A program made the position numbers and the translations under genes. Below, in pieces: positions 21,046 through 36,134 of a stretch of DNA of 36,134 nucleotides. The notes under the pieces were generated by a model that did no database searches, was not told where the DNA came from, and saw nothing but the letters and a program-made list of their open reading frames with translations. Each line of letters opens with the position of its first letter. Positions within the stretch are counted from its first letter, which is position 1. The stretch comes from a virus. Where the stretch lies: positions 1-36,134 of IMG/VR virus record IMGVR_UViG_3300044817_000011, one strand, 5' to 3'.

Positions 21046-21618
21046 ATGAAAATCGGATATGCTCGAGTTTCTACTGCTGATCAACAATTAAGCTTACAAG
21101 AAGATGCGCTCAGAGAAGCGGGGTGCATTGAAATATATACTGACATCGTTAGCGGTCTTAAAGAGATAAGACCTGGCTTTGATAAGATGATGGCATATAT
21201 AAGACCTGGTGACACAGTTGTTGTATGGAAGCTCGATAGGCTTGGTAGATCAATGAGACACTTGATTGACATCATTCAGACCTTACAGAGTAGAGAGATA
21301 GCATTTACTTCATTACAAGAAGCAATCGATACTTCAACAAGTACAGGTAAACTAATATTTCACGTGTTTAGTGCCATGGCTGAGTTTGAAACTGATCTCA
21401 TTCGTGAACGCACACATGCAGGTTTACGTGCTGCTCGTGCTCGAGGAAAAGAAGGTGGTAGACGATCAAAGCTAAAAGATCATGAAGTAAAGCGCATGAT
21501 TGAGCTTTACGACGATAAGAAAATGTCCATGAAAGAAATAACCAAATTATTTGGGATCAGCGTTCCGGGTTTTTATGTCTATAGAAATCGGTATATAGAA
21601 GCTCAAAAGCCTAGTTAA
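21046..21618 (+). CDS. Serine recombinase, resolvase/invertase family
   Basis: The 190-residue product is a full-length small serine recombinase. The catalytic region opens with YARVST, in which Ser9 is the nucleophile. Conserved arginines follow (VVWKLDRLGRS near residue 66), then FHVFSAMAEFETDLIRERT with the RER of the active site. Residues 145-185 hold the C-terminal helix-turn-helix (MKEITKLFGISVPGFYVYR). Such enzymes resolve plasmid dimers or invert segments. The two fibre genes nearby are in direct, not inverted, orientation, and the element carries plasmid maintenance genes. Dimer resolution is therefore the better guess. Confidence 0.9.
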   Translation: MKIGYARVSTADQQLSLQEDALREAGCIEIYTDIVSGLKEIRPGFDKMMAYIRPGDTVVVWKLDRLGRSMRHLIDIIQTLQSREIAFTSLQEAIDTSTSTGKLIFHVFSAMAEFETDLIRERTHAGLRAARARGKEGGRRSKLKDHEVKRMIELYDDKKMSMKEITKLFGISVPGFYVYRNRYIEAQKPS

Positions 21619-21917: not shown

Positions 21918-22148
21918 TTAAATTTGTTTTGTAGTGGGTAAGTTCATCCAGTATGCAACTATTTTATTTCCCGATATGGAAGTAAATACTTTTTTCTTAC
22001 TATAATATTTCCTGATTATATATCCATAAGGTTCATGTTCTGGGTAAATACCCAAATCTACCATTTTGCATCCCATCGAGAAGTTAAGTGTTAAATATGT
22101 TCCATCACAATCCGGTAACTTTTCATGAACTGAAATCCATTTATCCAT
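21918..22148 (-). CDS. DUF551-like protein, 76 aa
   Basis: The product begins MDKWISVHEKLPDCDGTYL and ends VAYWMNLPTT. This is the WxSVxExLP...DGxYL...WMxLP pattern of DUF551, small proteins frequent in phage early regions and of unknown function. The start at 22148 lies one base after the upstream gene's stop; ATG 22169 gives seven extra residues and is a less likely alternative. It is one of three proteins of this type here (also 23882-24064 and 24057-24365). Confidence 0.7.
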   Translation of the reverse strand: MDKWISVHEKLPDCDGTYLTLNFSMGCKMVDLGIYPEHEPYGYIIRKYYSKKKVFTSISGNKIVAYWMNLPTTKQI

Positions 22149-22149
22149 C

Positions 22150-22323
22150 TTATTTATCCATCCATTCATCTTTTAATCGTTCATAGCAAACAGCATGTAA
22201 AAATATTGGTTTTTCCGTGCCAATTCTAAGTGTTGCATGGCATATGCTAAATATTTCTTTGCCACATGAGCTGCATGTAGGCTCCCAAGCCACACTAGAG
22301 TCAAATGTAGTGATTTCAGTCAT
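22150..22323 (-). CDS. Small zinc-finger-like protein, 57 aa
   Basis: The frame starts with ATGACTGA, overlapping the preceding gene's stop, and ends one base before the DUF551-like gene. The product has a CSSCGKEIF motif, then ICHATL and HAVCYERL. These give two Cys plus His/Cys pairs that could bind one zinc. Tight overlap at both ends supports it as a real gene despite its size. The function is unknown; similar mini zinc ribbons are common in phage early operons. Confidence 0.65.
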   Translation of the reverse strand: MTEITTFDSSVAWEPTCSSCGKEIFSICHATLRIGTEKPIFLHAVCYERLKDEWMDK

Positions 22324-23881: not shown

Positions 23882-24064
23882 CTACTTCCAATCATGTTTA
23901 GAATATGGTGCTTTAGGAAGTTCCATCCAATATTTAACTTGAGTGTCAAATTTCCCTTCACGCATTGATGAAACTCCCACCCAGCTACCGAAATGATCTT
24001 CTACTACAAGATAGCGCCCATCTTTTTCTGGTAGATTATCTTTAGCATCGATCCATTCAATCAC
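23882..24064 (-). CDS. DUF551-like protein with GTG start, 60 aa
   Basis: A perfect GGAGG lies six bases before GTG 24064, which decides the start. The first in-frame ATG far upstream would overlap the neighbouring gene heavily. The product has EWIDAKDNLPEKDGRYLVV and KYWMELPKAP, the DUF551 pattern, shortened in the middle. Its first bases overlap the end of another DUF551-like gene, so a tandem duplication followed by divergence is likely. Confidence 0.7.
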   Translation of the reverse strand: MIEWIDAKDNLPEKDGRYLVVEDHFGSWVGVSSMREGKFDTQVKYWMELPKAPYSKHDWK

Positions 24065-24365
24065 TATTAACCTCCGGTGGTTCAGGTAATGACATCCAGT
24101 GCGTGGCATTGTAGGATTTATTATCGTGGCTATAAAATCTGTGAGATGAGAATTTATCACCTAAATAAATACCAAAAGTTGTTGGCACTCTATTTTCTCC
24201 TAATGAACAAAATAGTATTTCTTGTCCTGTAAATGGGACATCATTATTAACATAAATCCATCCAGATCTCTTTGCGCATGAGTAGCAATCTTCGCAAATA
24301 TGTCCATTGATATAAACCCACGGAGTCGAATCTTGATTGCATAGCTCACAAGCTTCTAGGCTCAT
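24057..24365 (-). CDS. Zinc motif fused to DUF551-like domain, 102 aa
   Basis: Residues 6-30 hold five Cys (positions 6, 9, 24, 27, 30) arranged as two CxxC-type knuckles, a probable zinc ribbon. Residues 34-100 show the DUF551 pattern (GWIYVNNDVP, then ATHWMSLPEPPEV). The fusion of a zinc module with DUF551 hints that both act in one process. It follows the secreted-protein gene by a few bases. No function is established for DUF551. Confidence 0.7.
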   Translation of the reverse strand: MSLEACELCNQDSTPWVYINGHICEDCYSCAKRSGWIYVNNDVPFTGQEILFCSLGENRVPTTFGIYLGDKFSSHRFYSHDNKSYNATHWMSLPEPPEVNSD

Positions 24366-25427: not shown

Positions 25428-25610
25428 TTATTTTAATTGTGCTCTTTCATTCCAATCTTTTGCTGAATTACTTGGATCTTCATGCCACCCACATTGTTCT
25501 ATACATTCATTGGAACATCTCACCCAAAATAATTTTACATTTAATTTTATAGATTCCATTACTTTTGGTTGTGCTCCACAAAATGGGCAACCTTTTAATA
25601 TCTCTGACAT
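25428..25610 (-). CDS. Lar-like zinc-ribbon protein, 60 aa
   Basis: The product has KGCPFCGAQPKV at residues 6-17, a second Cys group (CSNECIEQCGW) and an AKDWNERA end. This is the CPFCG...C..C...WNxR layout and length of Lar-type proteins. The founding Lar protein of the Rac prophage modifies type I restriction, but most relatives are untested. AAAAGGATTTTAA precedes the start. It is the first gene after the tRNA-like gene in the leftward direction. Confidence 0.7.
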   Translation of the reverse strand: MSEILKGCPFCGAQPKVMESIKLNVKLFWVRCSNECIEQCGWHEDPSNSAKDWNERAQLK

Positions 25611-25787: not shown

Positions 25788-26264
25788 TTAAAATGGTAGG
25801 TCACAATCAGAAAATTCATCTTTAGGCTCTGGCGTATTGCCCGAAAGATCAACCTTCCCTGCACCCGAATCTGTCATCACATAATCTTTTACAGCATTTT
25901 TGTCTGCGTACATCCCACCATTTGGGTTTGGTTGACCTGCTTGGATGATTATGTGCGCTTTGCCTGTACGTCCTTCACACTGCATAACATCGAAGCTTCC
26001 TGATTGATATTCCTTATCAAGACCAACGGTGTCACAGAAATGTTTTATCTTATAAACCATTGAGGTAATACTGACAAGATAATCGAAAACAATATGTTCC
26101 TTTCCCTGTTTATCCCAAATAACGAGTTGTAACTCAATCATTTGGTTCCCAGATTTAGATGTTTTCTGCGTAGCCTTCATCACATTAAAATCATAGATTC
26201 CATCTTCTACCATGTTAAGCGCTTGTAGTTCTGACTCTGTCATCGGTGGAAATGAAAAACTCAT
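25788..26264 (-). CDS. SSB-like protein, DUF669-type, 158 aa
   Basis: The product resembles DUF669-type phage proteins that work beside Sak4-like recombinases. It has an early GIYDFNVMKATQKTSKSGNQMI stretch (strand-turn-strand with SGNxM), then VFDYLVS and FCDTVGL, and a closing acidic tail ending DCDLPF. That tail imitates the DDDIPF tip of SSB, which recruits repair proteins. It probably binds single-stranded DNA during replication and recombination. Its start overlaps the ATPase stop by four bases, so the two are made together. Confidence 0.75.
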   Translation of the reverse strand: MSFSFPPMTESELQALNMVEDGIYDFNVMKATQKTSKSGNQMIELQLVIWDKQGKEHIVFDYLVSITSMVYKIKHFCDTVGLDKEYQSGSFDVMQCEGRTGKAHIIIQAGQPNPNGGMYADKNAVKDYVMTDSGAGKVDLSGNTPEPKDEFSDCDLPF

Positions 26265-27142
26265 GCTGCTTCTCCTTGCAATAGTCTAGATTTAAAATTG
26301 TCGATACACTTTTGTACGTTCTCACCACTCATCTCGTCTAAGCTTTGAGCTTGTCCTTTGATAAGAATCTTTTGAACGGTTTCATCCGGAATTGATAATA
26401 CCTGAATCAGCCTTTTAACTTCAGTAATTTGATCAGGTGTTGCTAGCACCTCAGCGACTGATTCATCATCAAAAATACATGAACCAAATATACTTTTTAC
26501 CGTTTCATAACCATCGTTAAAATCAATTAATTCCCCCAGCTTGATTTGTGGATAGCGAGACTTTTCTACAAAAGCCTTTTTGCTACTGCCGTGCTGTCTT
26601 AGGTTTAAAACTGTTCCTAATGAGTAGGCCATTTTTTCATTGATGTCATAAGTCTTGCCAACTTCTTTCCCATCAATGAACCGAGTTTTTTCATGCGCAG
26701 TTACTATCACGTTCATATCCAGCCTAGATAGTAAAATGCCGAGATGAAGGGTTAGGCGCTTTGCTTTGGCAAGATTCGCACCAAACTCCGTCCCTTCAGA
26801 TCCCGCCGACTTCGCAGCTAGCCGGTCAGCTTCCAGGTTGGCCAGAAGACCACAAGGAAAGCTGAGGGAATCGATAACTAATGTTTTGTATTTGTGTTTT
26901 ACGGATAGAAGTTCTTTGACTTCTTTGATAATGTCTGTCAGCTCTCTAATGAGAACGTGATCACCATCATTATCGATAATCATTTTTACGAGGTGAGGAT
27001 AATTTGTTAAATTCTCACTATCGATGTAGTACACATTTGGAAACGAACAACAAAAATGTGTTTTACCCACTCCTGTATTTGCATATACCAGCGCTTTGAA
27101 CCGCGCTTTAGTTACTTCTGGTTTTCTACCTTTTAGAGCCAT
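26261..27142 (-). CDS. Sak4-like RecA-fold ATPase
   Basis: The 293-residue product has a P-loop at residues 21-28 (ANTGVGKT), a Walker B segment (KTLVIDSLSFP) near residue 90 and a NVIVTAHEKTR strand near residue 150. This matches phage AAA ATPases related to Sak4 recombinases, which anneal or exchange single strands with an SSB partner. The partner gene follows directly. The usual first Gly of the P-loop is Ala here; the GKT core is intact, so activity is likely. TAGGAGAAAACATC precedes the start. The role would be replication-linked recombination, perhaps also genome circularisation. Confidence 0.8.
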   Translation of the reverse strand: MALKGRKPEVTKARFKALVYANTGVGKTHFCCSFPNVYYIDSENLTNYPHLVKMIIDNDGDHVLIRELTDIIKEVKELLSVKHKYKTLVIDSLSFPCGLLANLEADRLAAKSAGSEGTEFGANLAKAKRLTLHLGILLSRLDMNVIVTAHEKTRFIDGKEVGKTYDINEKMAYSLGTVLNLRQHGSSKKAFVEKSRYPQIKLGELIDFNDGYETVKSIFGSCIFDDESVAEVLATPDQITEVKRLIQVLSIPDETVQKILIKGQAQSLDEMSGENVQKCIDNFKSRLLQGEAA

Positions 27143-27477: not shown

Positions 27478-27921
27478 TTAGTTCCTAGAAATCCAGTAAA
27501 CTTCGCCATTATCTTCGTGACGTTCTCTTTGATAACCGCAATCGAATTTGCGTTCAGTGACATAGTCTTGATAAACGTCGTCTATGACTTCGTCGATCCA
27601 GTACTGCATCTCTTTCTCATATTCTCTGTAAGCGGCTTGTAATCGTGTGGGGTTTTGGATGAAATCTTCGTAGAGTTCCATGCAGTCAACTGCATAGCAA
27701 AGTAGGATTTTCTTTTCAGCGTCTGGTAGGTCTTTAGCTCTTAGATAATAGCCTTCGTCCATTTCGTCTGCATATTCTAAGACGCATTGGCGGGCAAACT
27801 CTAAAGCGAGATTGCGTTCGATATCGAACGGTGAAACGGACGTACGAGTATTGTTCAAGCCTTCTTCCTTGAAAGCATCTTGTTTTTGCGCAAACGAATG
27901 CGCTACACTGGCGATGGCCAT
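27478..27921 (-). CDS. First gene of the early leftward operon, 147 aa, unknown
   Basis: TAAGGAGTC precedes the ATG, and a strong promoter lies about 85 bases upstream, so this is the leading gene of the leftward transcript. The product is acidic and helical, with ERNLALEFARQCVLEYADEMDEGYY and a Tyr/Glu/Asp-rich body (QYWIDEVIDDVYQDYV). Its charge resembles DNA-mimic or inhibitor proteins, but that is only a compositional remark. I recognise no family. Confidence 0.65.
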   Translation of the reverse strand: MAIASVAHSFAQKQDAFKEEGLNNTRTSVSPFDIERNLALEFARQCVLEYADEMDEGYYLRAKDLPDAEKKILLCYAVDCMELYEDFIQNPTRLQAAYREYEKEMQYWIDEVIDDVYQDYVTERKFDCGYQRERHEDNGEVYWISRN

Positions 27922-27955
27922 AAATGACTCCTTAGACGGTTTACTTTTTGGTCAC

Positions 27956-27986
27956 GCTTAGAGGGTGTATCAGCACCCTTCTAAGC
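27956..27986 (-). other. Strong hairpin in the 5' leader of the early leftward transcript
   Basis: GCTTAGA-GGGTG pairs with CACCC-TCTAAGC (12 bp, one bulged T) around TATCAG. Without a T-run it is not a plain terminator. It falls close to the 5' end of the transcript from the 28004-28031 promoter and may protect the RNA or control expression. It also lies downstream of the RHH regulator gene and may help end that message. Confidence 0.5.
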
Positions 27987-28003
27987 ACCTAATTCATGTC
28001 TGC

Positions 28004-28031
28004 ATTATACCTACCTGCAATACCATTGCAA
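28004..28031 (-). promoter_or_regulatory. Early leftward promoter
   Basis: Read leftward, TTGCAA (28031-28026), a 16-base spacer and a perfect TATAAT (28009-28004) form a good sigma70 promoter facing the 147-residue gene and the recombination operon. It lies just after the RHH regulator stop and overlaps two regulator-like repeats. Confidence 0.65.
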
Positions 28032-28034
28032 TAC
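28016..28034. promoter_or_regulatory. Operator candidate: two direct TGCAATAC repeats
   Basis: TGCAATAC occurs at 28016-28023 and 28027-28034, one helical turn (11 bp) apart, overlapping the -35 and spacer of the leftward promoter. The CAATAC core also occurs on the other side of the adjacent RHH gene. RHH proteins often bind such phased direct repeats as tandem dimers. Confidence 0.5.
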
Positions 28035-28036
28035 AT

Positions 28037-28225
28037 TTATGAGAAAAACTTAATTAATTTTATTAACTCTTTTTCTGATGTATTTCTAACGAGTGTCTCA
28101 ATGATAAGTGATTTGGTTACCTTCACACTAGATACTTCATTGAGGTTTTCAACTAATGTGTTTAGTTTATCAACAGTTTCTTTGCTAAATCTGAAAGAAA
28201 TTGCTGGTCTTCGATTATCCGCCAT
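28037..28225 (-). CDS. Ribbon-helix-helix DNA-binding regulator, 62 aa
   Basis: The product begins with a strand-forming ISFRFSKETVDKLNTLVENL segment and continues with VTKSLIIETLVRN, the strand-helix-helix layout of Arc/CopG/MetJ-type dimers. At 62 residues it is only the DNA-binding domain. It is divergent from parA across a spacer holding repeated CAATAC/GTATTG motifs, and the same motif covers the leftward promoter at its other end. It is thus a candidate autoregulator and switch protein for the early operon. It could also be an antitoxin, but no toxin gene is adjacent. Confidence 0.7.
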   Translation of the reverse strand: MADNRRPAISFRFSKETVDKLNTLVENLNEVSSVKVTKSLIIETLVRNTSEKELIKLIKFFS

Positions 28226-28249
28226 TTAGTTTGGCCTTCCAGAAATTTT

Positions 28250-28329
28250 CAATACCTTAGTATATACATTTGTCTAGCAATACAAAAGGTTACTTTGTAG
28301 TGACAGCCTATTGTATTGGTTTAGTATTG
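28250..28329. promoter_or_regulatory. Operator candidates between RHH regulator and parA
   Basis: CAATAC occurs at 28250 and 28278, and its complement GTATTG at 28313 and 28324, the last two 11 bp apart. CAATACAA (28278-28285) and TTGTATTG (28311-28318) form an inverted repeat. A leftward TTGACA overlaps this region. The set probably controls the RHH gene and possibly parA. Confidence 0.45.
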
Positions 28330-28372
28330 TCAATTTGATTTAATTATGATATTCATAACTAGACGGTAAAGT

Positions 28373-28396
28373 GCGCATTTGCGCATTTCCGCATTT
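28373..28396. repeat. Upstream 8-bp repeat array, 3 units
   Basis: Three tandem 8-mers read GCGCATTT, GCGCATTT, CCGCATTT. They lie just before the parA start, where a ParA-system operator or centromere is expected. Both this array and the downstream one are preceded by TAAAGT. Confidence 0.85.
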
Positions 28397-28417
28397 TATT
28401 ACACAAGGATTTTTGAT

Positions 28418-29056
28418 ATGCCTATAGTATCATTCTTAAACCAAAAGGGCGGCGTTGGTAAGACCACTTTATGCGTTAATATTGCTCGTGATTTTAAACT
28501 GCGTGGTAAACGAACATTATTAGTTGATACAGACCCTCAAGGGTCTGCTCTGGATTGGCATGTCAGAAGTGATGGCGATTTAATTGATATGGTCTGCCTA
28601 TCAAAGCCAACTTTGAGTAAAGATGTTCCAAAGTTTGCACCTATGTATGATTGGATTTTTATTGACGGGATTGGGAAAATTGATGAAATGGCAAGCGCTG
28701 CAATTGCCTGTTCTGATGTGGTGTTAATTCCCGTTCATCCTTCCCCTTATGATATTTGGTCTACAAAAAAGATCATAGAACTTATAAAAGAAAGACAGAT
28801 CATCGCTTTTGATCAACCCAAGGCTAGTTTTATCGTGAGTATGCAAATTAACAATACGAACCTTTCAAAAGAAGTTAAAACTCAATTAGAAGAATATGGC
28901 TTTCCAGTTATGGAAGGTCGAACCTGTACTAGGGTTGCTTATGCTGAATGTTTACAAAAAGGGTCAACGATCCATGAATGGGATGATCAAAAAGCACTCA
29001 ATGAAATAAAACAATTGGCTCTAGAGATTGAGGGTTTAGCTAATGGTACTTCTTAA
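28418..29056 (+). CDS. parA: ParA-family partition ATPase
   Basis: The start is ATG 28418 (ACAAGGA upstream), giving 212 residues without an N-terminal HTH, as in short type Ib ParA/ParF proteins. Residues 9-17 hold the deviant Walker A QKGGVGKTT with the signature Lys at 10. VDTDPQGSALDW follows at 36-47, and WIFIDG near 79 is Walker B. PVHPSPYDIW at 105-114 is a typical ParF-like segment. It moves plasmid copies apart on the nucleoid, working with the RHH protein encoded next and the flanking repeats. Its 3' end overlaps the partner gene by 14 bases. Confidence 0.92.
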   Translation: MPIVSFLNQKGGVGKTTLCVNIARDFKLRGKRTLLVDTDPQGSALDWHVRSDGDLIDMVCLSKPTLSKDVPKFAPMYDWIFIDGIGKIDEMASAAIACSDVVLIPVHPSPYDIWSTKKIIELIKERQIIAFDQPKASFIVSMQINNTNLSKEVKTQLEEYGFPVMEGRTCTRVAYAECLQKGSTIHEWDDQKALNEIKQLALEIEGLANGTS

Positions 29057-29261
29057 AGCACCCTATGATGTTGAAGAGGATAAGAAGAAAAAATTAGATA
29101 AATTGAAAAAACAGATACGTTTTTCAAACGCAATTAAGTGCTCTGTGAAGATTCCCAGGAACACTTATCTCGATTTAAAGAAGAAATTATTCGAAGACAA
29201 CAATAAAAAGTTTCAGACGCTAATGATGGAACTCATTAATAATTATATGAAAAATGAATAA
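29043..29261 (+). CDS. ParG-like centromere-binding RHH protein, 72 aa
   Basis: The gene overlaps the end of parA, with GAGGG upstream. The product has a charged flexible N-terminus (about residues 1-30, Lys-rich) and a C-terminal strand-helix-helix (SNAIKCSVKIP, then FQTLMMELINNYM). This is the size and layout of ParG-type partners of short ParA proteins. It should bind the GCGCATTT arrays on both sides of the operon and activate ATP hydrolysis by ParA through its tail. The assignment rests on architecture and context. Confidence 0.75.
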   Translation: MVLLKAPYDVEEDKKKKLDKLKKQIRFSNAIKCSVKIPRNTYLDLKKKLFEDNNKKFQTLMMELINNYMKNE

Positions 29262-29268
29262 CTAAAGT

Positions 29269-29316
29269 GCGCATTTGCGCATTTGCGCATTTCCGCATTT
29301 GCGCATTTGCGCATTC
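29269..29316. repeat. Downstream 8-bp repeat array, 6 units (candidate centromere)
   Basis: Six tandem 8-mers occur: GCGCATTT three times, CCGCATTT, GCGCATTT, GCGCATTC. The array follows the ParG-like stop by seven bases and precedes the replication leader. It could be the partition centromere, replication iterons, or both. Confidence 0.88.
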
Positions 29317-29470
29317 TTTTAATAATCAAACACTTACGATTTTTTTTAGTTGACTTTTATTTCAGGTCAGCGCAGGATTTACATACGCTTTTCTCTCGCC
29401 AGGGATAAGCGAAAAGGTTAGCGGAACTAATTCGCTTTATGAAAAATTAATTTAGCTGTCATCACGGAAG
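29317..29470. promoter_or_regulatory. Replication leader region with hairpin
   Basis: TTGACT near 29352 may be a -35 box for repA, though no good -10 follows. At 29407-29437 AAGCGAA pairs with TTCGCTT, with an inner GTT/AAC pair around AGCGG, giving a bulged stem-loop. In IncFII plasmids such a loop is the target of a counter-transcript RNA controlling RepA. I see no coding frame of note here before the leader peptide. Confidence 0.4.
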
Positions 29471-29503
29471 ATGGCTAAACAAACAAAAGAGAGATTTTTA
29501 TGA
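29471..29503 (+). CDS. 10-codon leader peptide coupled to repA
   Basis: ATG at 29471 opens a short frame, MAKQTKERFL, whose TGA stop overlaps the repA ATG (ATGA at 29500-29503). The ribosome site (GGAAG) is too close to be ideal. IncFII plasmids use a leader peptide (Tap) with translation coupled to repA; the same layout here suggests comparable control. Confidence 0.45.
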   Translation: MAKQTKERFL

Positions 29504-30480
29504 ATCAGGATAGGATATCCGCTTGCAATGTTAATGCTTTTGAAGGGGCCTTACATTTACAAGCGGAAATACACACAAAACAGAGTCAGTTTAGCGCTGA
29601 ATTAAAGCGCTCGCAATCACAATCTTCAGGGAATCGTTGTGATCACAATAAGAATTCGTTCAAAAGACCTAAAGTTTTAAGAAATGCTAAAAGACGCCCT
29701 CACTGTTTGGAGGAAGCAAAAAGACGTATTTATGAAGCCATCGACAATAATTTTAGATACCCAAAGTTCGCAGAGATTTTCTTTCATAAGAATGGATGTG
29801 GCGGTGATGGAGCACCAGTGCGACATTTGGCAAGAAAACGTCGTTCAGAGGGGGTTGAGGGAATTCTTAGCCTTACTTTACCGCTCTTGCTGCACACTCT
29901 CAACCTGCACAAAATGGCCTGCGGATTTTACGATAAAAATAACAACTTTCACTATCGCGATTATGTTTACCTCGAAACTAGCACCGATCAGAGTTCTATC
30001 AGAATCAAAAGAGAGATGGCCGTTCTCAAGCGATTAGAGATTATTAATGTTATTAATATGCGCGAGCAAAACAATGATGGTACATGGCGTCATATAGGAA
30101 CTAGAATTGAGTTTACAGATAAGATATTTGATATGCTGGAATTAATGCCAGAATTCCTTGCTGATCGTGAATATTCCTATAGACGTTTTCAAAAAGATCA
30201 AAAGATAATAGATAATAAAGAAAAAACACTATCTTCATTTAAACCTAAAAATCCATACGAAAGAAAGTCAAAAGTTGACAATAGTAGGGTAGAAAGTTGT
30301 CAATCATCGGCTAAAATATTGACAAAATCTATGCGTCCAAACCAATACAAATACAACCCATCTAGTGACAAACAAGTGATTGCTCTTGCTGGCGAGTTAT
30401 TAAAGGCCCAGCTCTGTGCGAATGTGCGGGACGCAATCACACTTGCTTGCACTAAATTAGGTAAACCACCACCTAATTAA
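29500..30480 (+). CDS. Plasmid replication initiator, IncFII RepA-like
   Basis: The 326-residue product has the marks of IncFII-type RepA: a basic segment followed by KRRPHCLEEAKRRI (residues 64-77), LPLLLHTLN (127-135), and a winged-helix region. In the last, DQSSIRIKREMAVLKRLEIINV (163-184) is the recognition part, with TRIEFTDKIFDMLEL following. A basic tail ends in KPPPN. It would open the origin downstream, which has two DnaA boxes. Its own ribosome site is weak, in line with coupling to the leader peptide. A phage-type initiator of another family is the alternative, but the pattern and the parAB neighbours favour a plasmid initiator. Confidence 0.78.
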   Translation: MNQDRISACNVNAFEGALHLQAEIHTKQSQFSAELKRSQSQSSGNRCDHNKNSFKRPKVLRNAKRRPHCLEEAKRRIYEAIDNNFRYPKFAEIFFHKNGCGGDGAPVRHLARKRRSEGVEGILSLTLPLLLHTLNLHKMACGFYDKNNNFHYRDYVYLETSTDQSSIRIKREMAVLKRLEIINVINMREQNNDGTWRHIGTRIEFTDKIFDMLELMPEFLADREYSYRRFQKDQKIIDNKEKTLSSFKPKNPYERKSKVDNSRVESCQSSAKILTKSMRPNQYKYNPSSDKQVIALAGELLKAQLCANVRDAITLACTKLGKPPPN

Positions 30481-35628: not shown

Positions 35629-35919
35629 ATGGATAAAAGGATTGTTAACAGTAAAGAGTACAAGAATTTTTTAAAAATATCTCAGGATATGGTGAAGTTT
35701 TTTAAATTGAAGTCTGCACCACCACCTGATGAACATGATCACTATCTCAAGGTGTTAGCCAAATATGGAAAGTTACTCGATAAGCTTAATATTGCTAATG
35801 CAATACCTTTGTATCGTTATAAACATGATGATAAGAGCACATGGCGATATTTAAATGTAATCATTAAGGGTAAGCGATTTATTCGCTGGATAGAAAACCC
35901 AGAATTTAAGGCGGTATAA
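35629..35919 (+). CDS. Small hypothetical protein after terminase, 96 aa
   Basis: TAGGAG at six bases before ATG 35629 sets the start, eight bases after the TerL stop. The product is basic, helical in its first half (NFLKISQDMVKFFKL) and beta-like at the end (STWRYLNVIIKGKRFIRWIEN). The DKSTWR segment also occurs in the 107-residue fibre-associated protein, probably by chance. The family is unknown. Confidence 0.65.
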   Translation: MDKRIVNSKEYKNFLKISQDMVKFFKLKSAPPPDEHDHYLKVLAKYGKLLDKLNIANAIPLYRYKHDDKSTWRYLNVIIKGKRFIRWIENPEFKAV

Positions 35920-35922
35920 CAC

Positions 35923-36134
35923 ATGGATTGCAGTTACTACGGTACAAATGAAGGTGTTCGTGAGGGTTTGCCTGTGACGCATATAATTATGGATGAATTT
36001 TTCAATAGATTAGTTGAAAAGAATGAAGCAAAACTCCTAAAGAAACACGCAAATATATTGGCAGAGCTTCGTAAAACTTTTTCTAGTGATTTTAAAAATA
36101 TGAAAAAAAATATCAATATCGCCACTTTTGATAT
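35923..36134 (+). CDS. N-terminal part of the 109-aa protein that crosses the circular join
   Basis: ATG 35923 starts three bases after the previous stop, and the frame continues across the join to position 253. A second Met (in HIIMDEFFNRL) lies 22 codons on and is a possible alternative start. The N-terminal segment (MDCSYYGTNEGVREGLPVTH) precedes the helical part described at 1-253. The gene would be truncated only because the circle is cut here. Confidence 0.75.
   Translation, partial: MDCSYYGTNEGVREGLPVTHIIMDEFFNRLVEKNEAKLLKKHANILAELRKTFSSDFKNMKKNINIATFD
36000..36134. repeat. Terminal overlap, copy 2 (same as 1-135)
   Basis: The last 135 bases repeat the first 135 with a single mismatch (C at 36114 against A at 115). 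This marks the circular join; see the entry at 1-135. Confidence 0.9.

Follow-up and report, generated by a model that had tools for sequence, protein, structure and literature searches.

The window analysed here is the whole of the IMG/VR virus record IMGVR_UViG_3300044817_000011 (positions 1-36,134; 36,134 bases), and the element of interest is a gene for a 62-residue protein on its minus strand, flanked on both sides by copies of the hexad CAATAC. We put at about 0.7 the probability that this protein is a ribbon-helix-helix (RHH) autorepressor acting on the CAATAC hexads to silence the promoter of a neighbouring Sak4/SSB early operon (P2), its own promoter (P1) and probably that of the partition genes parAB. 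Its dimers would occupy tandem hexads, spaced by one turn of the helix, and keep RNA polymerase from P2 and probably from the parAB promoter; at P1 their targets would be single hexads. Expression would be expected to peak early upon entry and then to be shut off, settling at a low level. When the ends of the record were compared, a direct repeat of 135 bp was found (1-135 = 36000-36134, one mismatch), so the record is a complete genome, either circularly closing or with a short terminal repeat. Because the genome is complete, statements on absent genes carry weight for the families that were searched. This uncultivated virus looks like a plasmid-carried bacterial phage.

The CAATAC sites and the promoters, in part candidates, around them

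28018..28023, plus strand: CAATAC site 1, within the spacer of promoter P2
28029..28034, plus strand: CAATAC site 2, 11 bp from site 1, overlapping the P2 -35
28250..28255, plus strand: CAATAC site 3, just downstream of the candidate P1 -10
28278..28283, plus strand: CAATAC site 4, upstream of the candidate P1 -10
28313..28318, minus strand: CAATAC site 5 (GTATTG on the plus strand), parA side
28324..28329, minus strand: CAATAC site 6, 11 bp from site 5, parA side
28037..28225, minus strand: gene of the 62-residue RHH-like regulator (MADNRRPAISFRFSKETVDKLNTLVENLNEVSSVKVTKSLIIETLVRN...), an open reading frame tentatively assigned to RHH by pattern and operon slot
28031-28004, minus strand: promoter P2, TTGCAA-16-TATAAT, 10/12 consensus, start of the Sak4/SSB operon proper
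28264-28259, minus strand: candidate -10 TATACT of P1, the regulator's own promoter, read from the sequence
28300-28327, plus strand: candidate parA promoter (PA), GTGACA-16-TAGTAT, 9/12 consensus, preferred by the promoter scan
28316-28344, plus strand: alternative candidate PA, TTGGTT-17-TTTAAT, from inspection of the sequence

An earlier reading of the letters alone (the original prediction) had placed six copies of CAATAC or its complement on both sides of the small gene, with two pairs 11 bp apart, one pair over the TTGCAA/TATAAT promoter of a recombination operon and the other copies in the spacer towards parA. This anatomy was recovered in full: the six coordinates are exact, the pairs are same-strand pairs (28018/28029 and 28313/28324), the promoter is real, with its spacer of 16, sites 3-6 lie within 28226-28417, and the operon encodes a Sak4-like AAA_24 protein and an SSB-like protein. 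All six sites fall within the spacers that flank the gene (27922-28036 and 28226-28417) and none inside it. A further copy at 27848 was left uncounted, being inside the next gene of the operon, which encodes a 147-residue protein; another at 35801, with a matching dyad, lies within a coding frame and was treated as chance.

The clustering could be an effect of chance or composition. The motif was chosen after the fact, and in 15.5% of whole-window shuffles some hexamer with at least two G/C reaches six copies in 312 bp, as CAATAC does; in the real window seven such hexamers attain this density. Density alone is for this reason weaker evidence than the intergenic confinement and the 11-bp phasing. 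CAATAC is only mildly raised over the whole window (38 copies against 23 +/- 5.5 expected). Nevertheless, the cluster exceeded the composition expectation that the original prediction had proposed as a yardstick. When the spacers themselves were shuffled 1,000 times and any hexamer with at least two G/C was counted, so that the look-elsewhere effect is included, the maximum was five, reached three times, and no shuffle attained the observed six; among 300 shuffled windows the largest CAATAC cluster within 330 bp was also five. The two same-strand 11-bp pairs are the only ones in the window, and just 3 of 300 shuffled windows hold any. Together with both 11-bp pairs, the overlap with a promoter and the recurrence of the layout in relatives, these counts make a chance origin highly improbable.

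P2 carries two GTATTG copies, one overlapping its -35 and the other in its spacer, a position that argues for repression by the RHH protein rather than activation. The candidate -10 of P1 has CAATAC on either side. On the parA side both PA candidates overlap sites 5 and 6; on the plus strand GTATTG-N5-GTATTG is followed by TTTAAT in a P2-like geometry (compare GTATTGCAATGGTATTGCAGGTAGGTATAAT and GTATTGGTTTAGTATTGTCAATTTGATTTAAT). The parA-side promoter is not strong and is weaker than P2. The CAATAC copies probably sit on the promoters of the regulator gene and the partition genes too. The single observation that suggests control of parAB is the second 11-bp pair.

The RHH-led sak4 operon in related genomes

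27478..27921, minus strand: gene of the 147-residue protein, first after P2, with homologues downstream of the relatives' RHH genes in the sak4 operon
26261..27142, minus strand: Sak4-like recombination ATPase (AAA_24, 2.2e-15; phrog_124, 1.4e-18)
25788..26264, minus strand: SSB-like protein of the Sak4 operon (DUF669, phrog_378)

A search with Sak4 retrieved loci 51-68% identical and many more distant ones, nearly all metagenomic, and none in the phage or plasmid collections. Many of these relatives, among them most of the closest, have an RHH gene or two, coding for about 50-75 residues, at the head of the sak4 operon. Taken together, these RHH proteins match ones of solved structure, such as AvtR, Mnt, ParG, Arc and CopG. 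The window has the same arrangement, with a small RHH-like gene first and the 147-residue homologue in its position before sak4. Since several relatives encode a homologue of the 147-residue protein between their RHH genes and sak4, the 62-residue gene occupies the same slot as their RHH genes, and its sequence appears to have diverged, or to have been replaced, within a conserved operon position. The AAA_24 matches in the parA relatives were rejected as Sak4, as they fall below the cut-off and lie in parA-sized reading frames.

The relatives also share the layout of the promoters. Of 26 loci, 15 have a promoter match that spans or adjoins the stop codon of the RHH gene (17% of random stretches hold one), with a perfect 12/12 consensus in seven loci; likewise, P2 (28031-28004) lies beside the 3' end of the regulator gene and carries two CAATAC. 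The spacers of these stop-codon promoters hold a dyad in many relatives, e.g. TTGACAATGATTGATACCTTGGTATAAT in L088. Among the relatives, the promoter regions upstream and downstream of the RHH genes are more alike within a genome than between genomes (e.g. GGTACATAGGTACAATA/GGTACAGTGGTACAATA in L084 and TGATACATTGGTATA/TGATACCTTGGTATA in L088; permutation P=0.0004, an approximate value, as are the other relatives' probabilities, because the loci are mutually related and the motif was picked post hoc). In the window the shared element is CAATAC, present on both flanks of the regulator and confined to the spacers.

The hexamer most enriched in the 100 bp before 35 RHH genes is TGATAC (12/35 against 2.0 expected). 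The dyad ATAC-N4-GTAT was counted 8 times in the 5.5 kb that flank RHH genes, against 5 times in the other 226 kb, an enrichment of about 60-fold; shuffles yield a mean of 0.22 and a maximum of 3, and at other spacings from 0 to 10 the dyad is missing from the flanking DNA. The window holds one match to it between the regulator and parA:

28252..28263, plus strand: ATACCTTAGTAT, match to the family dyad ATAC-N4-GTAT

In three relatives (L084:3146-3250, L087:3262-3410 and L089:1577-1690) inspection by eye showed a strong promoter-like sequence with a G+C-rich hairpin after it. This element occupies the space between the RHH gene and the gene divergent from it, has no obvious conserved reading frame and is reminiscent of a small RNA.

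A different possibility is that the 62-residue protein acts as an antitoxin, within a toxin-antitoxin pair, and autoregulates through the CAATAC sites. Small RHH autoregulators are often antitoxins and some of the relatives score weakly to antitoxin models. Nevertheless, the next gene, that of the 147-residue protein, has no match in Pfam or PHROGs, to toxin families or others, is separated by its own promoter P2, and has homologues that follow RHH genes as an early-operon gene. An antitoxin is therefore very unlikely.

In its sequence (MADNRRPAISFRFSKETVDKLNTLVENLNEVSSVKVTKSLIIETLVRN...) the 62-residue protein resembles an RHH protein, with an alternating strand, a helix and then T-K-S-x-x-I, and its score to RHH_7 (E 0.049, 14.5 bits) lies under the cut-off of 27. 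In a profile comparison with the relatives' RHH set (hhalign) the register of the strand and helix A is correct, KAFSIRIPKDT being set against PAISFRFSKET (62-residue protein and relatives compared). What points, weakly, to an RHH identity is thus the sequence pattern together with the position. Single-sequence modelling of the monomer gives helices at 15-31, 38-48 and 51-61 (predicted local distance difference test, pLDDT, 76); an alignment-based model, a single long helix, is worse. No sequence match was found to any solved structure, Arc and Mnt included. Homologues of the protein gave no useful-score match in phages, and there were none in plasmids, in IMG/VR, in 369 genomes of the class of a Methylococcaceae metagenome-assembled genome (MAG) or in 10 genomes of the order of a Legionellales MAG. 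A hidden Markov model (HMM) match with E 1e-13 was discounted as circular, the protein being in the seed.

Several results weigh against the proposed repressor. The profile comparison is a weak match (E 0.015, probability 3%); a leave-one-out HMM of the relatives' RHH proteins missed the 62-residue protein; residues 1-14 of the monomer model form neither strand nor helix, so that the expected strand is absent; and a Foldseek search of the model against PDB gave no significant fold match. P1 has no good -35 and the promoter scan gave no match for it. The similarity between P1 and P2 of the window is unremarkable, 29 of 52 cross pairs being equally good, because the sites are short and lie outside any longer shared stretch. 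Finally, CAATAC, whose conservation in related genomes the original prediction had offered as a check, is not enriched near the relatives' RHH genes.

Partition genes and the question of lysogeny

28418..29056, plus strand: parA, partition ATPase (AAA_31, 3.4e-21; phrog_164 ParA, 9.6e-46)
29043..29261, plus strand: small parB-like gene, 72 residues, overlapping parA, assigned by position and a weak match to the post-parA gene of L001
28371..28399, plus strand: 8-bp iterons GCGCATTT/CCGCATTT just before parA, repeated at 29263-29321
29500-30480: 326-residue protein without family match, a replication-gene candidate

The sites could also be bound by another protein, either ParB (small and RHH-like) or the 326-residue replication-gene candidate, as centromere or origin iterons. 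The CAATAC sites adjoin parA, and homologues of the 326-residue protein are encoded after parAB in L001 (42%) and divergently from the RHH gene in L085; IMG/VR searches with this protein and the 147-residue protein as queries found nothing. Yet the GCGCATTT/CCGCATTT arrays on both sides of parAB are likely to be the centromere and ParB operator rather than sites of the 62-residue regulator, so ParB has iterons of its own; two of the CAATAC copies are at P2, on the other side of the RHH gene, and relatives with the same layout have no ParA. Binding by one of these proteins is accordingly improbable.

The original prediction went further and saw in the small protein a lysogeny switch in place of a CI/Cro pair. 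In that case, the protein would maintain the prophage as a plasmid, keeping the early operon silent and leaving parAB expressed or adjusting its level. The genome is complete, and a profile search of all of it, with positive controls, found neither a tyrosine integrase nor HTH_3, the family that would reveal a CI/Cro-type pair of helix-turn-helix repressors. ParAB and a resolvase-type serine recombinase fit a plasmid prophage, and the putative operators are found at the early promoter and towards parA. The relatives nevertheless speak against this interpretation. Terminal overlaps of 40-136 bp were found in 8 of the 10 whose contig ends were compared, and among 14 searched with profiles ParA was found in none, a tyrosine integrase in two and HTH_3 over the cut-off in three; in L094, which has both integrase and HTH_3, no RHH gene was found in the sak4 locus. 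Since complete relatives that carry the module have no ParA, and most of them no integrase or clear CI either, the module is not tied to lysogeny. Furthermore, the analysis identified neither an antirepressor nor an induction input or opposing regulator, and a repressor over the parA promoter would reduce the partition genes in the prophage state. A lysogeny switch is therefore doubtful. The broader proposal is also unlikely, namely that a single 62-residue RHH protein decides between lysis and lysogeny through one hexad at the early genes, at its own gene and at partition, without CI, Cro or integrase, and that it belongs to a wider group with co-diverging RHH-operator pairs. Shut-off of the early genes with autorepression would be a more economical function than a device specific to lysogeny. 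Of the original prediction, control of several promoters by one putative RHH protein is well supported by the anatomy and by the relatives, and the lysogeny switch is not.

If the RHH autorepressor does extend to parAB, this control would be an addition in the lineage of the window, as relatives have the module without ParA. In this lineage a module of ParAB and the 326-residue gene, resembling that of L001, adjoins the RHH-led operon.

Comparison with known systems and other features of the genome

Small RHH repressors acting at a phage regulatory region are known from Arc and Mnt of phage P22, which also carries a CI-type repressor (C2) and an integrase. The window resembles P22 in its small RHH-like regulator and in encoding a P22-like portal (family match), and differs in that the 62-residue protein has no sequence match to either Arc or Mnt. 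A functional parallel is Reg-p576 of the Bacillus plasmid p576 (clade II of the pLS20-family plasmids), an RHH repressor of establishment genes that acts at several promoters, including its own, via paired heptamers, and leads to transient early expression (PMC8708921). An RHH repressor at several promoters including its own and paired short motifs are likewise proposed here. Nevertheless, Reg-p576 belongs to Gram-positive conjugative plasmids and the window to a phage, and its motif TTATCCC-N2-TTATCCC (a 9-bp repeat) flanks the promoter, whereas the CAATAC hexads are 11 bp apart and lie over the -35 and spacer. RelB of the E. coli relBE system, also an RHH protein, binds as dimers to 6-bp repeats that share one face of the helix, and its 12-bp palindromic half-sites recall the 12-bp ATAC-N4-GTAT dyad of the relatives (PMC2812701). 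RelB has a toxin as co-repressor and tolerates no half-site spacing, whereas no toxin was recognised in the window and its hexads form a direct repeat. ParG and omega, centromere-binding RHH proteins of type Ib, are small repressors on short repeats upstream of par operons (PMC5016525); the 62-residue gene differs from theirs in lying on the other side and heading another operon, and the par module of the window has its own small gene and iterons.

Should the proposed repressor be confirmed, it would represent an early-gene control module for an uncultivated phage group, with RHH proteins instead of CI/Cro, and in the window early phage genes would be coupled to plasmid partition via one regulator. 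The operator could be read from the genome, being repeated at both promoters that flank the regulator, and the RHH protein-operator pairs across relatives would constitute a natural data set on the change of RHH specificity. If these pairs co-diverge, many independent immunity specificities may exist.

The serine recombinase mentioned above, of resolvase/invertase type, is encoded at 21046-21618 and possibly serves multimer resolution. A Lar-like restriction alleviation protein (25428-25610) is encoded within the early operon, and an 80-residue protein (750-992) has a match to a Tad2-like domain of Thoeris anti-defence. DUF551 matches were found in three minus-strand reading frames, at 21918-22169 (just under the cut-off), 23882-24160 and 24057-24365, the last two of which overlap each other.
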